Origin: Gemmatimonadota bacterium
GTDB taxonomy: Bacteria; Gemmatimonadota; Gemmatimonadetes; Longimicrobiales; Gaopeijiaceae
Length of the DNA: 64,000 nt
Reading direction: 5' to 3'
NCBI GenBank assembly: GCA_027623325.1
Contig: JAQBXY010000010.1
Coordinates: 1 to 64,000, forward strand
Shown here one piece after another: positions 4,008 through 36,804 of this stretch. The position numbers and the translations under genes are program-made. Below the pieces are notes generated by a model. That model did no database searches and was not told the DNA's origin. It saw only the letters and a program-made list of their open reading frames with translations. Each line of letters opens with the position of its first letter. Positions within the stretch are counted from its first letter, which is position 1.

Positions 4008-6860
4008 CTAGCCTCGATGGAGGGCCAGGACGGCGGCCTCGCGGATGGCCGGAGCCAGGAAGCGGCCCGTCGCACTCTCTGGAATGCTCGCGATGGTCTC
4101 CGGCCGCCCGACCCCCACGATTTCGCCCCCCCGAATCCCCGCCCCGGGCCCCAGGTCGATCACCCAGTCCGCGACCCGGATCACATCAAGGTTGTGCTCG
4201 ATGACCAGAACCGTGTTGCCCGCATCCACGAGCCGCCCCAGGACGTCGAGCAGTTTGTGAACGTCCTCACCCGCGAGTCCCGTGGTGGGCTCGTCGAGGA
4301 TGTAGAGGATCCGGCCCTTTTTGCCCGCGACACGCGCAAGTTCGCGAGCGATCTTGAGGCGCTGGGACTCCCCACCGGACAGAGTCGTAGCCGGCTGGCC
4401 CAGACGGAGATAACCGAGACCGACCTGCTGAAGATGCCAGAGCGCCTTACCGAGCTTTCGCTCTCGAATGAAGAAGCGGATCGCCTCGTCCACCGTTAGC
4501 TCCAGAACCTCCGCGACGTTCCGACCGCGTACCTTCACCTCGAGAACGTCACGCTTGTAGCGGCGCCCGCCACAGCTGTCGCACGTGACGAAGACGTCGG
4601 CCATGAAGATCATTTCGACCTCGACGGCCCCGGCGCCTTTGCACGCCTCACAACGGCCACCGTCGACATTGAAGCTGAAGTGCCCGGGACCATATCCTCG
4701 TTCTCTTGCGAGTGGCGCCTCCGCGAAGAGCTGGCGGACCGAGTCCCAAGCTTTGACGTACGTCACCGGATTCGAGCGAGGCGTCCGGCCGATCGGGTCC
4801 TGATCGACGAGCACCACCCGTTCCAGGTGCTTCAGACCGTCGAGGGAGTCATAGTCACCGACGACTTCGCCAAGATGCTCCTTGGCGCTCGTCTCGCCGG
4901 AGCCCATCTCACTCTCCGCGGCCCGATAGAGCACGTCGTGAACGAGCGTCGACTTCCCGGACCCTGAGACGCCGGTCACCACCGTGAACGTGCCCAGGGG
5001 AATCTCGACGTCGACGCCACGGAGGTTGTGCTGGCGCGCTCCGCGCAGAGTCAGATAGGGACCGTCGATGTTGCGGGGGCGAGGAGAGGGGGCGTTCGGC
5101 GAGCGCCCGGACATGTAACGACCCGTCACCGTATCCTGCTCCGCCAACTGACCGGGAGTACCTTCGAAGACCACCTGCCCTCCATGCTCCCCCGATCCCG
5201 GCCCCAACTCCACGATGTGGTCCGCCTGCCGAATGGCCTGGCTGTCGTGCTCGACGACTACGACGGTATTCCCTGCGGCACGGAGACGGTGAAGGAGGTC
5301 GAGCAGTGCCCCCGTATCCTTCGGGTGCAACCCGACCGTCGGTTCATCGAGGACATAGAGCGTGTCGACCAACGCCGAGCCGAGGGAGTTCGCCAAGTTG
5401 ATTCGCTGAGCCTCACCGCCTGAGAGGGTCCGCATCTGGCGACTCAGCGACAGGTAGCCGAGCCCTACATCCACGAGAAACCCCACGCGTGCCCGTAGCT
5501 CGCGAAGGATCGTCTCAGCGATCTGCTCTTCCATCGGAGAGAGCTGGAGGTCGGCCACCCAGGGAGCCGCATCTTCGAGCGGGAGATCCGCAATTTCTGA
5601 AATGGTGCGACCCGCGACCCTGACGTAGAGGGCCTGAGGGCGAATTCGAGCACCTCCGCAGTCCCTACAGGTGACCGGGCTCTGATACTGCCGCAGAAAC
5701 ACGCGGATGTACTGCTTGTATCGCTTCTTCTCCTTGGAAACGAGAAAGGGCATGACGCCCTCGAACCCCTTGGCGCCGTACAACACTTCGTTCCGAAATT
5801 TCTCGGACAGATCTTCCCACGGTGAGTAGAGTGACACACCCCTCTCCAGCCCGAAGGCTCGCAGCTTATCCCGTTCCTTCGTGTATCGCGGCTTTCCCCA
5901 CGGATCGATCGCGCCTTCCGAGAGCGACCGTTTCGCGTTCGGGACGATCAGTTCGGGGTCGTAATCCAGCGTGGCGCCAAAGCCCGTACAAAGGGGACAC
6001 GTTCCGTAGGGGTTGTTGAACGAGAACAGCCGAGGCGTGGGATCCAGGAACTCCACCTTCGGATGGTCGGGACAACGAAAGTGTTCGGTGAAGAGAAGGC
6101 GCGTTTCTCCGCTCGGCTTGCCGTCCATGACCACCACGACGGCCTCTCCGTCACCCTCCACGAAGCACGTGCCCAGAGAGTCCGCCAGCCGCTCGGCCTC
6201 GTCCGGATCGATCTTGAGTCGATCCACTACCACGAGTAGCTCGCGGGCCGCACTGACATCTCGCTCGAGCTCGATCGGCGAATCGGTGCCCTCCGTCGAG
6301 AGATCAACGGCATCACCATCCGCCAGGAGGCGCACGAAGCCCAAGGCGCGCAGATTGGCAACGATGAGTTCGTGCGTGATTTCGGCGCTACGAGGGAGGG
6401 GGAAGGTCACCTGAATGCGCGTACCTGCGGGCAGCTCCAGGACCCGGTCGACCGCGGAGCTTACCGTATCGGGTCGAACGTGCCGTCCGCACTCCGGGCA
6501 CTCGCTCCGCCCCACACGCGACCACAACAGACGCATGTAGTCGTAGACTTCCGTCGCGGTACCCACGGTCGAGCGACTCGACTTCGTCGGGTTCTTCTGC
6601 TCGATCGCGACAGCCGGTGATATGCCCTCGATCGAATCGACGTCGGGCTTCTCCATCCGTTCCAGGAACTGCTTGGCGTAGGTGGAAAGTGATTCCACGT
6701 ATCGTCGCTGGCCCTCGGCGAAGAGGGTGTCCAGGGCGAGAGAGCTCTTTCCGGAGCCGGACGGACCCGTAATGACCGTAAGGCTTCGCCGAGGCAGATC
6801 GAGATCGATCCCCTTGAGATTGTGCTGGCGGGCGCCACGGATGCGGATGGGGTCGTTCAT
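4008..6860 (-). CDS. uvrA: UvrABC excinuclease subunit A
   Basis: UvrA is the damage-sensing ATPase of nucleotide excision repair; it dimerises, finds bulky lesions and loads UvrB. From ATG 6860 the protein has 950 residues, the normal family length; the open frame extends to 7187 but that extension lacks family sequence. Two ABC modules are present: Walker A at about residues 32-39 and 630-637, with signatures [12 protein letters not shown] and [12 protein letters not shown]. Zinc-binding elements are the CPDH...CPLC pair (the CxxH variant occurs in other UvrA proteins) and the CEAC...CDSC pair in the second half. It is first in an operon with a glycosyltransferase. Confidence 0.97.
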
Positions 6861-7172
6861 CTCACTCTTGCGGAGCTTCCCTAGTCGACGCGGTGGAGCC
6901 AGGAGGGTGAAGGATGATAAGGCGACCGTCCAGAGGTCGTGCGTCATCACGCGGCCCATACGGGTGGCGGGAGGCTGCTGTACGCGTAGGATGACAATCC
7001 GAAGCAAGCACCCACCGCGACCCGTCTCGAGCTCCTCGAACAAGCAGGCCTTAAAGTCGCCTTTCGCGCAGACCGCGTCCTCATCGGGTCGATGGTAGGC
7101 TCCGACGAGCGGACGCGCTGCCGGAACCACTGGCTTGCCCGAACCCCGGCCCGGCTGACATTGTGGAGGTCT
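6861..7172. other. Non-coding stretch between uvrA and the lipoprotein remnant
   Basis: These 312 bases separate two divergent reading directions and should hold the uvrA promoter. Open frames crossing them are extensions of uvrA or unrelated short frames without recognisable protein features. I see no convincing -35/-10 pair, LexA-like palindrome, repeat or RNA gene. Confidence 0.5.
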
Positions 7173-7425
7173 ATGCGTCGCTCTCACACCTACCTGCCCG
7201 CCGTCGTCGGCCTCCTCGTCCTCATCGGGTCGTGCAGTCCGGTCGATTCCCCGACCGATCCGACCCCGGATCCGGTATCGACGCCTGACGTCTCCATCAG
7301 TGTCGGCGCGAGCGACACGTCACCGGTCGACGGTGACACGGTTCGGGTAACGGTCCAGGTCACCAACACGAACCGGACTGGGGCGGCTGCGGTCACCAGC
7401 CTTCAGGTGCTCAACTCCGGTCCGT
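7173..7425 (+). pseudogene. Truncated lipoprotein gene with a CARDB-like segment
   Basis: The ATG at 7173 follows a GTGGAGG ribosome-binding site. The product begins with a signal peptide ending in LVLIGSCSPVDS, a lipobox with Cys21, then a Pro/Asp-rich linker and a beta-rich segment resembling a CARDB/Ig-type domain (DGDTVRVTVQVTNTN). Around 7415-7430 this sequence stops abruptly: beyond it the frame, which stays open to 7625, reads only the antisense of the ADOP permease fragment. The gene has therefore lost its 3' part at a rearrangement point. The original protein was probably an outer-membrane lipoprotein of unknown function. Confidence 0.6.
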
Positions 7426-7660
7426 CCGATCGGCGTCCGATCTCGCTCAACCGCTCGAGCGCGCCATGGACGACCATGTTGGGAATGGTCTTGACCCACA
7501 GCCACGCCACGCTCCACGCGCCAACGACACAGGCCTCCTTGAGTCGGTCCAGAAAAAGCTCGGCTGCGTCCGATCCGTACAGCTCGCGGAAGCGTGGCGG
7601 GAAGATCCCGAGGAGAAGTCGATAGAGTCGCTCCGATCGGCCGACGCGCGGTTCGCTCAT
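7403..7660 (-). pseudogene. Truncated ADOP-family ABC permease (N-terminal fragment)
   Basis: The 85-residue frame carries only the soluble N-terminus of an ADOP permease: LYRLLLGIFPPRFRELYGSD followed by a helical segment ending near ALERLSEIGRR. Intact family members have about 800 residues, with MacB-like periplasmic domains and FtsX segments; here the frame stops at 7403 in sequence belonging to the opposing lipoprotein remnant. The ATG at 7660 overlaps the PadR stop in an ATGA junction, the usual arrangement for PadR-ADOP pairs. The fragment has no transmembrane segment and is very unlikely to work as a transporter. Confidence 0.75.
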
Positions 7661-8022
7661 GACCCCTCTACTGGCAACGAGACGCGGGCCGCCGCCGCGG
7701 CCACGAGTGCCCTCATGCGCATCGCATCAGCCGCCAGGACCTCACGCCCGAACGGCAGCACACGGTAGTATCGCCGCCGTTCATCGCCGCCGCCCCCAGA
7801 AGGACGGCGCTCGGCGGCTTCGATCATGCCCGCCTCGACCAGAGTCCGAATGTGTCGATACAGGTTGCCCGGTTCGAGCTGGATCCGTCCTTGGCTGCGT
7901 TCCTGAATCTCTTTCACGATCCCGTAGCCGTGCAGATCGCCGTCCGTGAGGACCAGCAGGATGTGGAAATCCACCGGCCGGAGCGGCAGATGCGCCGCGA
8001 GAGCGTCGTTGCGGGACGTCAT
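7657..8022 (-). CDS. PadR-family transcriptional regulator
   Basis: PadR proteins are small winged-helix repressors that often control membrane transporters. From ATG 8022 the protein has 121 residues, the usual short form; the longer frame to 8199 runs into the opposite promoter region and is rejected. Family features include the helix-turn-helix block LLVLTDGDLHGYGIVKEI and the recognition segment LEPGNLYRHIRTLVEAGMIE. Its gene is coupled to a truncated ADOP permease, so it may now lack its original target. It could instead control the divergently transcribed exporter, since a palindrome lies in the shared promoter region. Confidence 0.85.
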   Translation of the reverse strand: MTSRNDALAAHLPLRPVDFHILLVLTDGDLHGYGIVKEIQERSQGRIQLEPGNLYRHIRTLVEAGMIEAAERRPSGGGGDERRRYYRVLPFGREVLAADAMRMRALVAAAAARVSLPVEGS

Positions 8023-8134: not shown

Positions 8135-9937
8135 ATGGCCAACGCCGAAACCTTCCACGAAGAGGACGCGCTGGGTAAGGCGTACGACGCCCGGCTCATG
8201 CGCCGCCTCCTGCGCTACCTGCGGCCCTACTGGTGGCAGGTCGCCATCGCGATCGTGATCCTCCTACTCGGCGCGGGCGCGGCGATTGTGGGCCCATGGA
8301 TCGTTCACCTCGTCATCGATGAGGCGATCCCTAACGGTGACGTCCGCTATCTCACGATTCTGGCCGCTGTCTTCTTCGCGTCGATCGTCCTGGGATTCCT
8401 GCTCGAGTACGGCCAGGCGGTGGTTACGACGTGGCTCGGCCAGTCGATCATGTACGACATGCGCTCGGAGATCTTCGAGAAACTCCAACAACTCGACCTG
8501 AGGTTCTACGACAAGAACCCGATCGGGCGACTCATGACGCGGATAACCAACGACGTCGAGACGCTGAACACCCTGTTCAGCTCTGGGATCGTGACGATCT
8601 TCGGGGACGTGTTTACTCTGGGCTTCATCGTCGCGGCGATGCTGAGCATGAATTGGCGCCTCGCCCTCGTCTCGTTCAGCGTCCTACCGCTCGTCTTCGG
8701 AACGGCGTTCATGTTCCGCTCCTACATCCGGGCGGCGTACCGCGATATCCAGGTTCGCATCGCCCGCGTCAACGCCTTCCTGCACGAGCGTATTACCGGC
8801 ATTCGAGTGGTCCAGCTCTTCAATCGTGAAGATACGGATGCCGCGCGCCTTGCCGAACTCAACGACGACCATCTCCAAGCACATCTACGCTCGATCACGT
8901 ACTACGCGCTCTTCTTTCCGGTCATCCAGTTCTTCACCGCGCTGGCCCTCGCCCTGATCATCTGGTACGGAGGCCTGCGCATGCTCGAAGGGGCGTTAAC
9001 GGTCGGAGTGATCGTCGCCTTCCTTCAGTACGCTCGACAGTTCTTCCAGCCTATTCAGGACCTTTCGGAGAAGTACAACCTCATTCAAGCGGCGATGGCA
9101 TCCTCGGAGCGTGTCTTCCATCTCCTCGACGAGGAAGTTGCGATTACCGATGCCGTCGACCCGCTCAGCCTCCCCGCGAGCGGGAGAGGAGAGATCACCT
9201 TCGAGAACGTCTGGTTCGCCTACGACGCCGACGCAGGCGGCGATCGGGACTGGGTCCTTCAGGACGTGAGTTTCACAGTCGCACCGGGGGAGAAAGTCGC
9301 CATCGTCGGGCACACGGGGGCGGGCAAGACGACCTTGATCAACTTGCTCATGCGCTTCTATGACGTGGACCGTGGACGGATCCTGCTCGACGGCGTGCCC
9401 ATCTCCAGGCTCCGCATCGACGACCTGCGCTCCCGCGTGGGGCTCGTGCTGCAGGACGTCTTTCTCTTCAGTCAGGACATCGGCTACAACATTCGCCTTG
9501 GGTCACCCGAGATCGGGCCCGAGCGTGTGAAGGAGGCCGCTGAACGGGTCGGGGCCTCGACGTTCATCAACCGGCTCGAAAAGGGATACGACCAGCCGCT
9601 CGGTGAACGAGGAGCCACACTTTCGGTTGGAGAACGGCAGCTCGTGAGCTTCGCGCGTGCCCTCGCCTTCGATCCGCAGATCCTCGTTCTCGACGAGGCC
9701 ACAAGTTCCGTGGACTCGGAAATCGAAGCCAGAATCGAACAGGCCACCGACGAACTTTTGAGCGGTCGTACGTCGCTGGTCATCGCACACCGCCTCTCCA
9801 CCGTCCAGAACGCGGATCGCATCATCGTGCTCCACCGTGGGAGGGCCCACGAGACAGGAACGCACGACGAGTTGCTCACTCTGGGCGGCCTGTACGCGCG
9901 ACTCTACGAACTCCAGTTCGCGTCCGTGACCGGTTAG
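8135..9937 (+). CDS. MsbA-like ABC exporter (fused permease and ATPase)
   Basis: The 600-residue half-transporter has a type I exporter fold: six transmembrane helices in about residues 35-320, then a nucleotide-binding domain. Walker A starts at Gly392 (GHTGAGKTT), the signature is LSVGE at 496-500 (a mild variant of LSGGQ), Walker B with the catalytic Glu reads ILVLDEATSSVDSE, and the switch His lies in IAHRLSTV. Relatives flip lipid A, lipopeptides or drugs across the inner membrane; the substrate cannot be read here. It is divergent from padR with overlapping promoters. Its TAG stop overlaps the stop of the convergent DUF4015 gene. Confidence 0.92.
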   Translation: MANAETFHEEDALGKAYDARLMRRLLRYLRPYWWQVAIAIVILLLGAGAAIVGPWIVHLVIDEAIPNGDVRYLTILAAVFFASIVLGFLLEYGQAVVTTWLGQSIMYDMRSEIFEKLQQLDLRFYDKNPIGRLMTRITNDVETLNTLFSSGIVTIFGDVFTLGFIVAAMLSMNWRLALVSFSVLPLVFGTAFMFRSYIRAAYRDIQVRIARVNAFLHERITGIRVVQLFNREDTDAARLAELNDDHLQAHLRSITYYALFFPVIQFFTALALALIIWYGGLRMLEGALTVGVIVAFLQYARQFFQPIQDLSEKYNLIQAAMASSERVFHLLDEEVAITDAVDPLSLPASGRGEITFENVWFAYDADAGGDRDWVLQDVSFTVAPGEKVAIVGHTGAGKTTLINLLMRFYDVDRGRILLDGVPISRLRIDDLRSRVGLVLQDVFLFSQDIGYNIRLGSPEIGPERVKEAAERVGASTFINRLEKGYDQPLGERGATLSVGERQLVSFARALAFDPQILVLDEATSSVDSEIEARIEQATDELLSGRTSLVIAHRLSTVQNADRIIVLHRGRAHETGTHDELLTLGGLYARLYELQFASVTG

Positions 9938-33964: not shown

Positions 33965-36472
33965 CTACTTCTTCTTCGGCGCTGCCTTTCTTCTTGCCGC
34001 GGGCGACTCCTTCTTCGCTTCATCCGCAGGTGCGTCCGTCTTCGGCGCGGGCTGCCCGGCCGCCATGACACGATCCCGCCCACTCTCCTTCGCCTCGTAG
34101 AGCGCTACGTCAGCGGCCGCGATGAGGTCCTTGGCAGAAGCACCATGGGTCGGGTACTCCGAAGCGCCGATGCTCACCGTTACCTGACGGCCGTCGAAGA
34201 CCTCCTTCGCCAGCCTCGTGCGAATCCGTTCCGCTGCGTCGACCGCGCCCTGTAGATCACAGTCGGGAAGAAGAACGATGAACTCTTCGCCACCGTATCG
34301 GGCCGGGATATCGGGTTCACGCGTCGCCTCTCGCACGACCCGACCCATACCCATCAGCACCTGATCGCCGGCCGGATGACCGAAGGAGTCGTTGTACTGT
34401 TTGAAGCGATCGACGTCCATCATGAGTACGGCGAACTTCCGCTCGTGGCGGGATGCGCGATGGATCTCCTTGTCGAACTCCTGCATCACGTACCGACGAT
34501 TGAAGAGGGACGTAAGCGCGTCGGTCATCGAGATCCGTTCGAGCTCCACATTCTGCTCCCGGAGAATCGAGCTAGCCTCATCGATGACGATCACCGGTAC
34601 GTTGCCGACCCGGTCTTCCTCGGTGAACACCCGGCCCTCGATGACCTCGATGCCCATCACGTCGAAGTAGTCCGCGCTCACGATGTCGTACTGCGCGAAG
34701 CGCTGTTCATCCGTCGGCTCGATTCGAAACCCCCAGGGCATGTTCACCCCGGCCATCGGCGGACTCGTCGCGATCGCGACATCGAGCCCTCGGGCCTGGA
34801 GATTCTGTAGGAGGACTCGCCAGTAGATGGCCCGACTTTCAGGCGTCGGGTACCGCTCACCCCTAGCCATGATCTCGGCAGATGCCACCCCTTGAGCCTC
34901 GAATCCGAGGTCGACGCCTTGAAGCGTCACCACGTGTCGGATCACCCCCGCCCCGGTGGTGGCGAGCAGCGTGGTGAGCGCGACCTGACTGGCGACGAGG
35001 GCGCTTCGACCGGCCAGGCCGGTTCCAATGCCCGTGGCGCTGCGACCGATGGCGGGCGCCACCCCCCGCGACAACAGGTAGCCGAGAAGCCCAACCAGCC
35101 AGCCCGACAGAAGCGCCAAGGCCAGAATTGCTCCGCCAACACCGGCGCTGAGGCGCACATCTCCGGCCCGCGGCACGTCGGAGGGCACGAGCGCCGCGAG
35201 CGGGATGAGGAGCCCGTAGGCGACGAGTAGCGCGAACCCTCCCGCCATCGCTCCGACGAGAACCGCTTCAACGAGACTGCCGCGCATGAGCCTTCGTTCC
35301 GATGCGCCCAAGGCGAGACGAATCCCTCGATCATGGCGCCCATCTACCGTCCTCGCTGCTACGAGGCCCGCGACGTTCACGACTGCAAGCAGAAGAAAGA
35401 CGCAGCCGGCGGCGAGCAGGAGGCCCATGACACCGCGATAGGGGCGCATGAGTTCTTCGGTGAGGCTCACCGCTTCTCCACCCCACCCACGGTGATGGGC
35501 AAAGCGTTCCCCGAAGGAGAGGACGACCCGGTTCATCTCCGCCGTCGCATCGTCCACCGAGTGTGTAGGAGCGACGCGAGCGACCACATCGATATACCTC
35601 GCTCCCCGCATGCCCAGCACGAGTTGGTCCGGGCCGAAGGACATGCGCACGATCAGCTCTGCGTCGTCAGGATATCCGGACGGAAGTCGCACGACGCCCA
35701 CGATCCGGTGCGACTCACCGGAGAGCATGAGTGATCCGGATCCGACGACGCCGGGATCGGCTCCGAACACTCGTCGCCAGAAGGCCTCCGAGAGCACCAC
35801 CTCCGGAGCATCTTCATCGAAAGACAGGGCGCGCCCAAAAAGGGGGGCGATCCCGAGGATTTCAAACAGCTCCGGTGAGACGACGAGAGCGGTGATCCGT
35901 GATGTTCCCTCCTCCCTCCTCCAGTCGAGGACGTTCCGAGATACGCCGGCGACGGCCGAAACGGTGGTCCAGTCGTACGCGCGGAGATCTTCGAGGAAGG
36001 GTGGCGACAATCGCCAGCGGGTGCGCTCTACCTCGGCGCTACCGGCAGCCAGAGGTTCCACTTCGAGGAGCCGAACCACTCGCTCCGGGTCAGGAAACGG
36101 CATCGGCGCCAGCCAAACATGCCAAGCCACGGAAAGTACGGCGGCGGCTGACGCCAGGCCGATCGCGAGCGTACCGGTCACTCCCGCCGTGTAGAGGGGC
36201 TTTCGTCTCAAGACGCGGAGGCTCTGGCGGATGTCGCCGATCAGCCCCTGCCACGAACGACGATTGAGCAGGTCGAGATCGGGCACCGCTGCCGCGGAGA
36301 TCGCGCGGACAGCTTGCGACCAGTACCAACGCCGAGCGGCTCCGGCGCCGGACTCCTCCGCGATCGCCAAGAACCGTTCACCGAGGTCCTCACAAATGAA
36401 CGGACGATCCTCGCGCGCTGAAAAGAGTCGCACCAACGCCCTGGCGAGCTGCGGCACCTCGGGCTTCATCAC
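33965..36472 (-). CDS. Chimeric ADOP permease-GGDEF diguanylate cyclase
   Basis: The 835-residue frame joins two unrelated parts. Residues 1 to about 632 are an ADOP permease: N-terminal helical domain, TM1 (about 96-120), MacB-like periplasmic domain, an FtsX block with three TMs (about 355-475), TM5 (about 500-520) and the start of the second MacB domain, ending VPVIVIDEA. Residues from about 634 are a diguanylate cyclase: a linker SSILREQNVELERIS, MTDALTSLFNRRYVMQEF, GGEEF at 727-731 and an I-site RxxD at 718-721, then a Lys/Ala-rich tail. The last part of MacB domain 2 and the final three TMs are missing. Five TMs predict a periplasmic GGDEF domain, where there is no GTP. The start overlaps the PadR stop (ATGA). 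A real fusion, a decayed locus or an assembly join are all possible. Confidence 0.8.
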   Translation of the reverse strand: MMKPEVPQLARALVRLFSAREDRPFICEDLGERFLAIAEESGAGAARRWYWSQAVRAISAAAVPDLDLLNRRSWQGLIGDIRQSLRVLRRKPLYTAGVTGTLAIGLASAAAVLSVAWHVWLAPMPFPDPERVVRLLEVEPLAAGSAEVERTRWRLSPPFLEDLRAYDWTTVSAVAGVSRNVLDWRREEGTSRITALVVSPELFEILGIAPLFGRALSFDEDAPEVVLSEAFWRRVFGADPGVVGSGSLMLSGESHRIVGVVRLPSGYPDDAELIVRMSFGPDQLVLGMRGARYIDVVARVAPTHSVDDATAEMNRVVLSFGERFAHHRGWGGEAVSLTEELMRPYRGVMGLLLAAGCVFLLLAVVNVAGLVAARTVDGRHDRGIRLALGASERRLMRGSLVEAVLVGAMAGGFALLVAYGLLIPLAALVPSDVPRAGDVRLSAGVGGAILALALLSGWLVGLLGYLLSRGVAPAIGRSATGIGTGLAGRSALVASQVALTTLLATTGAGVIRHVVTLQGVDLGFEAQGVASAEIMARGERYPTPESRAIYWRVLLQNLQARGLDVAIATSPPMAGVNMPWGFRIEPTDEQRFAQYDIVSADYFDVMGIEVIEGRVFTEEDRVGNVPVIVIDEASSILREQNVELERISMTDALTSLFNRRYVMQEFDKEIHRASRHERKFAVLMMDVDRFKQYNDSFGHPAGDQVLMGMGRVVREATREPDIPARYGGEEFIVLLPDCDLQGAVDAAERIRTRLAKEVFDGRQVTVSIGASEYPTHGASAKDLIAAADVALYEAKESGRDRVMAAGQPAPKTDAPADEAKKESPAARRKAAPKKK

Positions 36473-36804
36473 CCGCCCCCCTCGGCAAGGGGGCTACTGA
36501 GCCCCTGCCACAGCCCCTCGAGGAGAGCACGGGAGCGGTCGATCGCGGCCTCCCCCTCTGCCAGCAGTCGATAGTCGCGCGTCGTCCTCCGACCGGGAGC
36601 GTTTCCCGTGCCCACACGCGAGGACACCAGAGCCTTACGCTCCATTCGCTTCAGGGTCACGTATACCGCGGGAATCGATACGTCCCTTCCCGTCGCATCG
36701 AGAATCTCGCGGTGGATCGACGCGCCGTAGGCATCGTCTCCGAGGCGGGCGAGAGCGAGCAAGACAACGAGTTCGAACTCCCCGAGATAGTCACGACCAC
36801 CCAT
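36469..36804 (-). CDS. PadR-family transcriptional regulator (ADOP-associated)
   Basis: The 111-residue regulator starts MGGRDYLGEFELVVLLALARLGDDAYGASIH in family terms (ATG 36804, GGGGG upstream) and carries the recognition segment IPAVYVTLKRMERKALVSSR. ADOP-linked PadR proteins typically begin with this LGEFE block. An upstream in-frame start at 36831 would fall inside the operator and is rejected. The gene overlaps the permease start by four bases (ATGA). A perfect palindrome in its promoter region is the likely operator, so autoregulation is expected. The PadR at 7657-8022 belongs to another subtype. Confidence 0.9.
   Translation of the reverse strand: MGGRDYLGEFELVVLLALARLGDDAYGASIHREILDATGRDVSIPAVYVTLKRMERKALVSSRVGTGNAPGRRTTRDYRLLAEGEAAIDRSRALLEGLWQGLSSPLAEGGG

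Follow-up and report, generated by a model that had tools for sequence, protein, structure and literature searches.

Gene fragments between uvrA and an ABC exporter gene

The window, that is, the whole 64,000-nucleotide stretch of DNA analysed here (G000:C36:1-64000), belongs to a genome of 3.35 Mb which is assembled into 60 contigs and rated 100% complete. Between uvrA and the gene of an ABC exporter it holds pieces of a histidine leader, of hisG, of a lipoprotein gene and of an ADOP permease gene in series, followed by an intact PadR gene (Table 1). The leader and hisG pieces lie on the plus strand and in their original order.

Table 1. Features of the probable histidine operon scar and of its flanks in the window.
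Feature	Position	Strand	Evidence
uvrA, left flank of the scar	4008..6861	-	tblastn to relatives' uvrA adjoining the his operon or the ABC gene
Histidine leader/attenuator ghost	6910..7038	+	covariance model E 7e-8; blastn 82% over 85 bp
hisG fragment, about codons 27-54	7026..7109	+	tblastn, hisG HMM, DNA identity
Lipoprotein gene, 5' fragment	7173..7422	+	signal peptide with lipobox; partial DUF11; weak relatives
ADOP permease gene, 5' fragment	7403..7660	-	85-aa frame, about 76 residues ADOP
Tail-to-tail junction	7410..7438		where similarity ends on both sides
PadR regulator, intact	7657..8022	-	Pfam PadR E 3e-15; relatives' identity
ABC exporter, right flank of the scar	8135..9937	+	Pfam ABC_membrane and ABC_tran; survey

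In the preliminary description a plus-strand lipoprotein gene and a minus-strand ADOP gene were said to meet tail to tail, both having lost their 3' parts near 7415-7430. This is confirmed, the limits of similarity agreeing with that position within about 10 bp. The lipoprotein gene starts at the ATG at 7173 and, as read from the sequence, has a ribosome-binding site (GTGGAGG) and a lipobox (LIGS/C). Its first 80 or so residues resemble a secreted lipoprotein with a DUF11-like domain just beginning (Pfam PF01345; at E 0.007 the match does not reach the cut-off). Relatives resemble it as far as residue 79 (about 7409), and the open frame reaches 7625 only through an antisense reading of the ADOP piece. 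The related proteins are weakly similar and most have much longer open frames; no convincing intact ortholog was found among the relatives searched. A lipoprotein gene beside the ABC exporter of G017 matches weakly (E 5e-8 in one search, 0.006 in another) and might be regarded as a weak candidate.

ADOPs are duplicated orphan permeases which have PadR as a partner. The ADOP frame of the window begins at 7660, at the stop of PadR, in an overlapping ATGA, and an overlap or near-overlap is found in four relatives. Alignment with the intact ADOPs of G005 (51% identity) and G125 (47%) extends to residue 75-78 or so (7427-7438), and the ADOP N-termini of G005, G125 and G048 are 47-59% identical to the fragment. 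Past this point the frame runs antisense into the lipoprotein gene and is stopped at 7403. It has no Pfam match over its 85 residues, and the two permease domains which follow the N-terminal prefix are absent; it is a gene fragment. Most likely the lipoprotein and ADOP frames are both dead.

PadR retains its winged-helix domain (PF03551, 56 bits against a cut-off of 27) and is 66-70% identical to its counterparts in G048, G127 and G125. Its identities to that of G048 at the three codon positions (78/83/40%) are typical of selection on the protein, which would have acted over most of the divergence between the window and G048. As had been proposed, the regulator is left without its permease, and this is likewise so in G048 and G127. 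PadR now stands head to head with the ABC exporter, and this divergent layout suggests that it might control the exporter. An operator pattern seen by eye in the divergent promoter did not beat randomised sequences (shared-motif score 60, null maximum 60 in 40 randomisations), and we make no claim for it.

The genome of the window possesses 27 PadR genes, all with open frames. Seventeen have a full ADOP frame, six a broken one and four none near; the window PadR is counted among these four, the ADOP body query not covering its stump. The idea that PadR outlives ADOP genome-wide was rejected, since PadR is about eight times shorter and the counts are no evidence of selection. The broken ADOPs after PadR (for example G000:C3:25590-26248, C31:14156-17073 and C26:216795-219843) have frame breaks or large internal losses. 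A second PadR-ADOP pair, with an ADOP frame of 842 aa, is located in the window at 34580-36759 (-). In a wider contig collection PadR found no match and the ABC exporter distant matches only.

Remnants of a histidine leader and of hisG

The preliminary description had counted two truncated genes, but hisG is also truncated in the same scar, which holds a broken his leader as well; truncation therefore affects at least three genes, not two. A covariance model was built from nine his+ relatives, the window being excluded. Over the 90-kb contig it gave one credible site, the leader ghost of Table 1 (40.7 bits), the next best scoring 12.8 bits (E 0.51), and blastn located the same ghost with an E value of 3e-16. 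The model recovers the six held-out loci which hold the region upstream of hisG, and it scores two his-less genomes strongly as well, with a leader in G127 at 87.6 bits and one in G013 at 63.3 bits. Among the other 14 loci searched G108 gave weak matches (24 bits) and 13 gave none. A comparison of the window scar with Rfam gave no match up to an E value of 1.

What is left of the leader is the tail of the His leader peptide (RHHAAHTGGGRLLYA, then a stop) and the 5' arm of the terminator. There is no in-frame start codon, two His codons remain, and the 3' arm of the terminator and its T-run are gone; it is thus a remnant rather than a member of the attenuator class. The terminator ends abruptly in its loop, where the sequence passes into the hisG fragment. 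This fragment matches HisG of G011 at 64% over 28 residues (tblastn against a small database, E 7e-8), and its DNA is 79% identical over 66 bp. It is also the best match of the contig to the hisG HMM (15.8 bits, E 7e-4; 300 randomised copies gave no more than 6.3 bits); the fragment is short, and the HMM score taken alone is modest. The stretch 7110-7172 showed no credible match to anything.

A short His-rich frame precedes hisG in all 15 genomes in which this region was read, and a terminator hairpin with a T-run was present in all ten leaders folded out of the 15 his+ ones. We predict that the leaders of the his+ relatives are his leader-peptide attenuators. They include those at L031:8748-8887 (-), L036:8488-8624 (-) and L285:2938-3074 (+), with peptides such as MTNPIHHRHHHHHAAHSGGEGLVRA (then a stop); these gave no Rfam match, and at seven loci no leader matched an Rfam family at the gathering score. 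In its relevant passages PMC9413887 describes attenuators of his operons from Proteobacteria and, as a new finding, from some Firmicutes, and the pertinent part of PMC2965389 states that, as of 2010, a function had been assigned to almost none of the attenuators predicted in phyla like Acidobacteria. Among the titles and abstract beginnings of the open-access literature searched, none dealt with a his attenuator from Gemmatimonadota or with a scar of this kind.

The uvrA-his-exporter locus in related genomes

In related genomes hisG-D-C-H-A-B-F-IE is found between uvrA (-) and the ABC exporter (+), usually running into the latter, which in most of the his+ relatives read is the gene directly after hisIE. 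The exporter was searched for in 121 genomes, 91 of which had a match at E 1e-50. The surroundings of uvrA or of the exporter were read in 50 of these 121 genomes, all of the family, the window included and stretches off the locus being uncounted. His genes stand before the exporter in 19 of these, usually as hisD-C-H-A-B-F-IE, to which hisG is added if the stretch extends that far, and in most of the 19 the spacing between hisIE and exporter is a few to about 60 bp. Two others (G017, G097) have his genes at a greater distance upstream, one (G006) retains hisIE alone, and five have a single hisC-like gene at the locus. uvrA adjoins the exporter without any his gene in 13, including the window. 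The remaining ten are uninformative, mostly owing to contig ends or to stretches lacking uvrA and his; G127, the two sides of which are on two contigs, is one of them. This pattern suggests that uvrA-his-ABC is the likely ancestral order.

No gene of the relatives' his operon was found in the window. hisD is absent from the window genome; it was found in one of 13 genomes tested, namely G005, the source of the query. HisA/HisF (PF00977) gave only a sub-threshold match (19.5 bits) in the window genome and was above cut-off in 23 of 36 genomes and in 14 of 14 controls. The genome-wide absence of his genes thus refers to hisD and HisA/HisF in a 60-contig assembly. Exceptions among genomes with his-less loci are G013, G002 and G092, which hold a HisH-HisF-like pair elsewhere, and G016, with a partial HisA/HisF match at a contig end. 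G143 and G144 (L291, L292) possess a divergent his operon elsewhere, possibly a replacement by transfer, and lack the standard one; that of G143 has a His-rich leader of its own.

Several relatives display comparable junctions. In G048 hisIE (+), the operon being kept, meets an ADOP stump (-) of 100 codons which is followed by an intact PadR (-). In G127, the sister of G048, the his attenuator is joined to an ADOP stump of 25 codons; PadR is again intact, and neither hisD nor HisA/HisF was found. G127 is a simpler version of the window scar. G001 lacks both his genes and ADOP, and its PadR is a relic interrupted by an internal stop. The preliminary description had proposed looking for intact versions of both truncated genes near each other in relatives. 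PadR-ADOP pairs with a permease body were found in G125 (885-aa ADOP frame) and G005 (open to the contig end), in both cases on a contig other than that of the ABC gene; the lipoprotein gene had no convincing intact ortholog. Between the first PadR and the exporter of G048 (L095:5500-7750) there are, besides other debris, a second PadR and remnants of another ADOP, consisting of a short N-terminal piece and a C-terminal end.

On a tree derived from uvrA and ABC pieces, with loss of his treated as irreversible, nine loss-only events are required at the locus for 29 genomes, or eight for 26. Support is high for the placements of G127 with G048 (0.98), G092 with G041 (0.996), G006 with G005 (1.0) and G013 beside G010/G011 (1.0), and lower (0.84) for the precise position of the window genome. 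Among the relatives this operon seems to have disappeared on several occasions from one and the same place.

Origin of the scar and comparison with known systems

On the strength of the fragments and the way they are ordered and oriented, of an assembly in which hisD and HisA/HisF are missing and of similar losses in relatives, we consider it very probable that region 6910-7660 is the decayed scar of a histidine biosynthesis operon. The main loss is that of the his operon. The ancestral order would have been uvrA (-), his leader and attenuator, hisGDCHABFIE (+), then lipoprotein (+), ADOP (-) and PadR (-), and lastly the ABC exporter (+). In G048 an ADOP-PadR unit indeed occupies the interval between hisIE and the ABC gene, which shows that such a placement is possible. 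The position of the lipoprotein gene is presumed, and no relative displays the full order with an intact lipoprotein gene. Deletions of varied size may have removed the leader start, the terminator and the beginning of hisG. Some 6.5 kb of operon, as estimated from G005, would then have been lost from hisG codon 54 onwards, and with it the 3' part of the lipoprotein gene and the ADOP body, in one event or more, leaving pieces of the leader, hisG, the lipoprotein gene and ADOP and sparing PadR and the exporter. The number and sequence of these deletions are our reconstruction, and the cell presumably needs external histidine.

The junction had originally been ascribed to one deletion or inversion end point. 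Deletion is indeed the best cause, but a single end point does not suffice: with a hisG fragment and a broken his leader in the scar at least two deletions are needed, one of them within the region from the attenuator to the start of hisG. Inversion or translocation was rejected. An inversion should have left the other halves somewhere, and the ADOP body, expected at about 50% identity to that of G125, was not found elsewhere in the genome (best longer match 37%); the remainder of the G017 lipoprotein had no match either, in a search run without a positive control. That one end point joined an intact convergent lipoprotein-ADOP pair, the his operon being unrelated, is very improbable: the junction itself is one breakpoint and its tail-to-tail layout would fit one deletion, but it leaves unexplained why a leader ghost and a piece of hisG lie within a few hundred base pairs and why the his operon is missing. 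Misassembly or misbinning might be suspected in a multi-contig assembly, but the flanking uvrA and ABC genes are direct neighbours in 12 other genomes and the pieces occur in ancestral order inside a 90-kb contig, which makes such an artefact extremely improbable.

Alternatively, the short ADOP frame and PadR might be a maintained two-gene unit of regulator and prefix domain, the short frame encoding a functional small protein. PadR accompanies an ADOP stump in G000, G048 and G127 with the stop/start overlap kept, and the codon-position identities between the stumps of G000 and G048 (67/70/44%) are no worse than those between copies with a permease body (54/66/35%, G125 and G005). Constraint before truncation would explain this codon pattern, however, and G001 keeps only its PadR relic. 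Furthermore the stumps measure 76, 100 and 25 codons and run into three different neighbours, namely the lipoprotein gene, hisIE and the his attenuator, so that a short protein conserved among relatives, which the preliminary description held would show the frames to be functional, is rejected. We regard a maintained unit as quite improbable and prefer to see the ADOP stump as part of the histidine operon scar.

After loss of the operon an attenuator could conceivably persist and control the ABC exporter, formerly the last gene of the operon, by histidine supply; we think this rather unlikely as yet. G013, a genome without hisD, has a complete His leader with a weakened terminator directly before the exporter (L035:2676-2827 (-)). 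In the window such control would have been lost, and PadR may have replaced it.

This is ordinary gene decay, yet it is a clear fossil of repeated histidine-operon loss. What looked like a gene junction becomes one member of an ordered series, in which a conserved his operon with its own attenuator appears to have been lost several times from one place. Its stages are the intact operon, hisIE only, the attenuator without the operon, attenuator and hisG fragments, and the clean junction. Such a series opens questions on the course of decay in pathway genes and in their regulation, on whether a regulator survives its targets, and on which of the family's members rely on outside histidine. It also illustrates that a pair of short frames can conceal older, smaller fossils.

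With ADOP-PadR systems the locus shares a permease gene which begins at the PadR stop, intact in G125 and, up to the contig end, in G005; the window keeps only about 76 permease codons. The his+ relatives resemble the his leader-peptide attenuators of the E. coli/Salmonella type, and the Firmicutes examples as given in the relevant passages of PMC9413887, in having a short His-rich leader peptide and a strong terminator with a T-run before hisG, whereas the window leader lacks the start, most His codons and the 3' half of the terminator. Amino acid auxotrophies have been described in another order of Gemmatimonadota (in the pertinent part of PMC11651109), and histidine is listed among the putative auxotrophies of the Palauibacterales of this phylum in the corresponding section of PMC10469786. 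As in auxotrophy through loss of a biosynthetic operon, the pathway genes tested have been lost here; compared with the Palauibacterales as treated in that section, the scar in the window can be read down to single bases, and within one family the loss is found repeatedly at a single locus.
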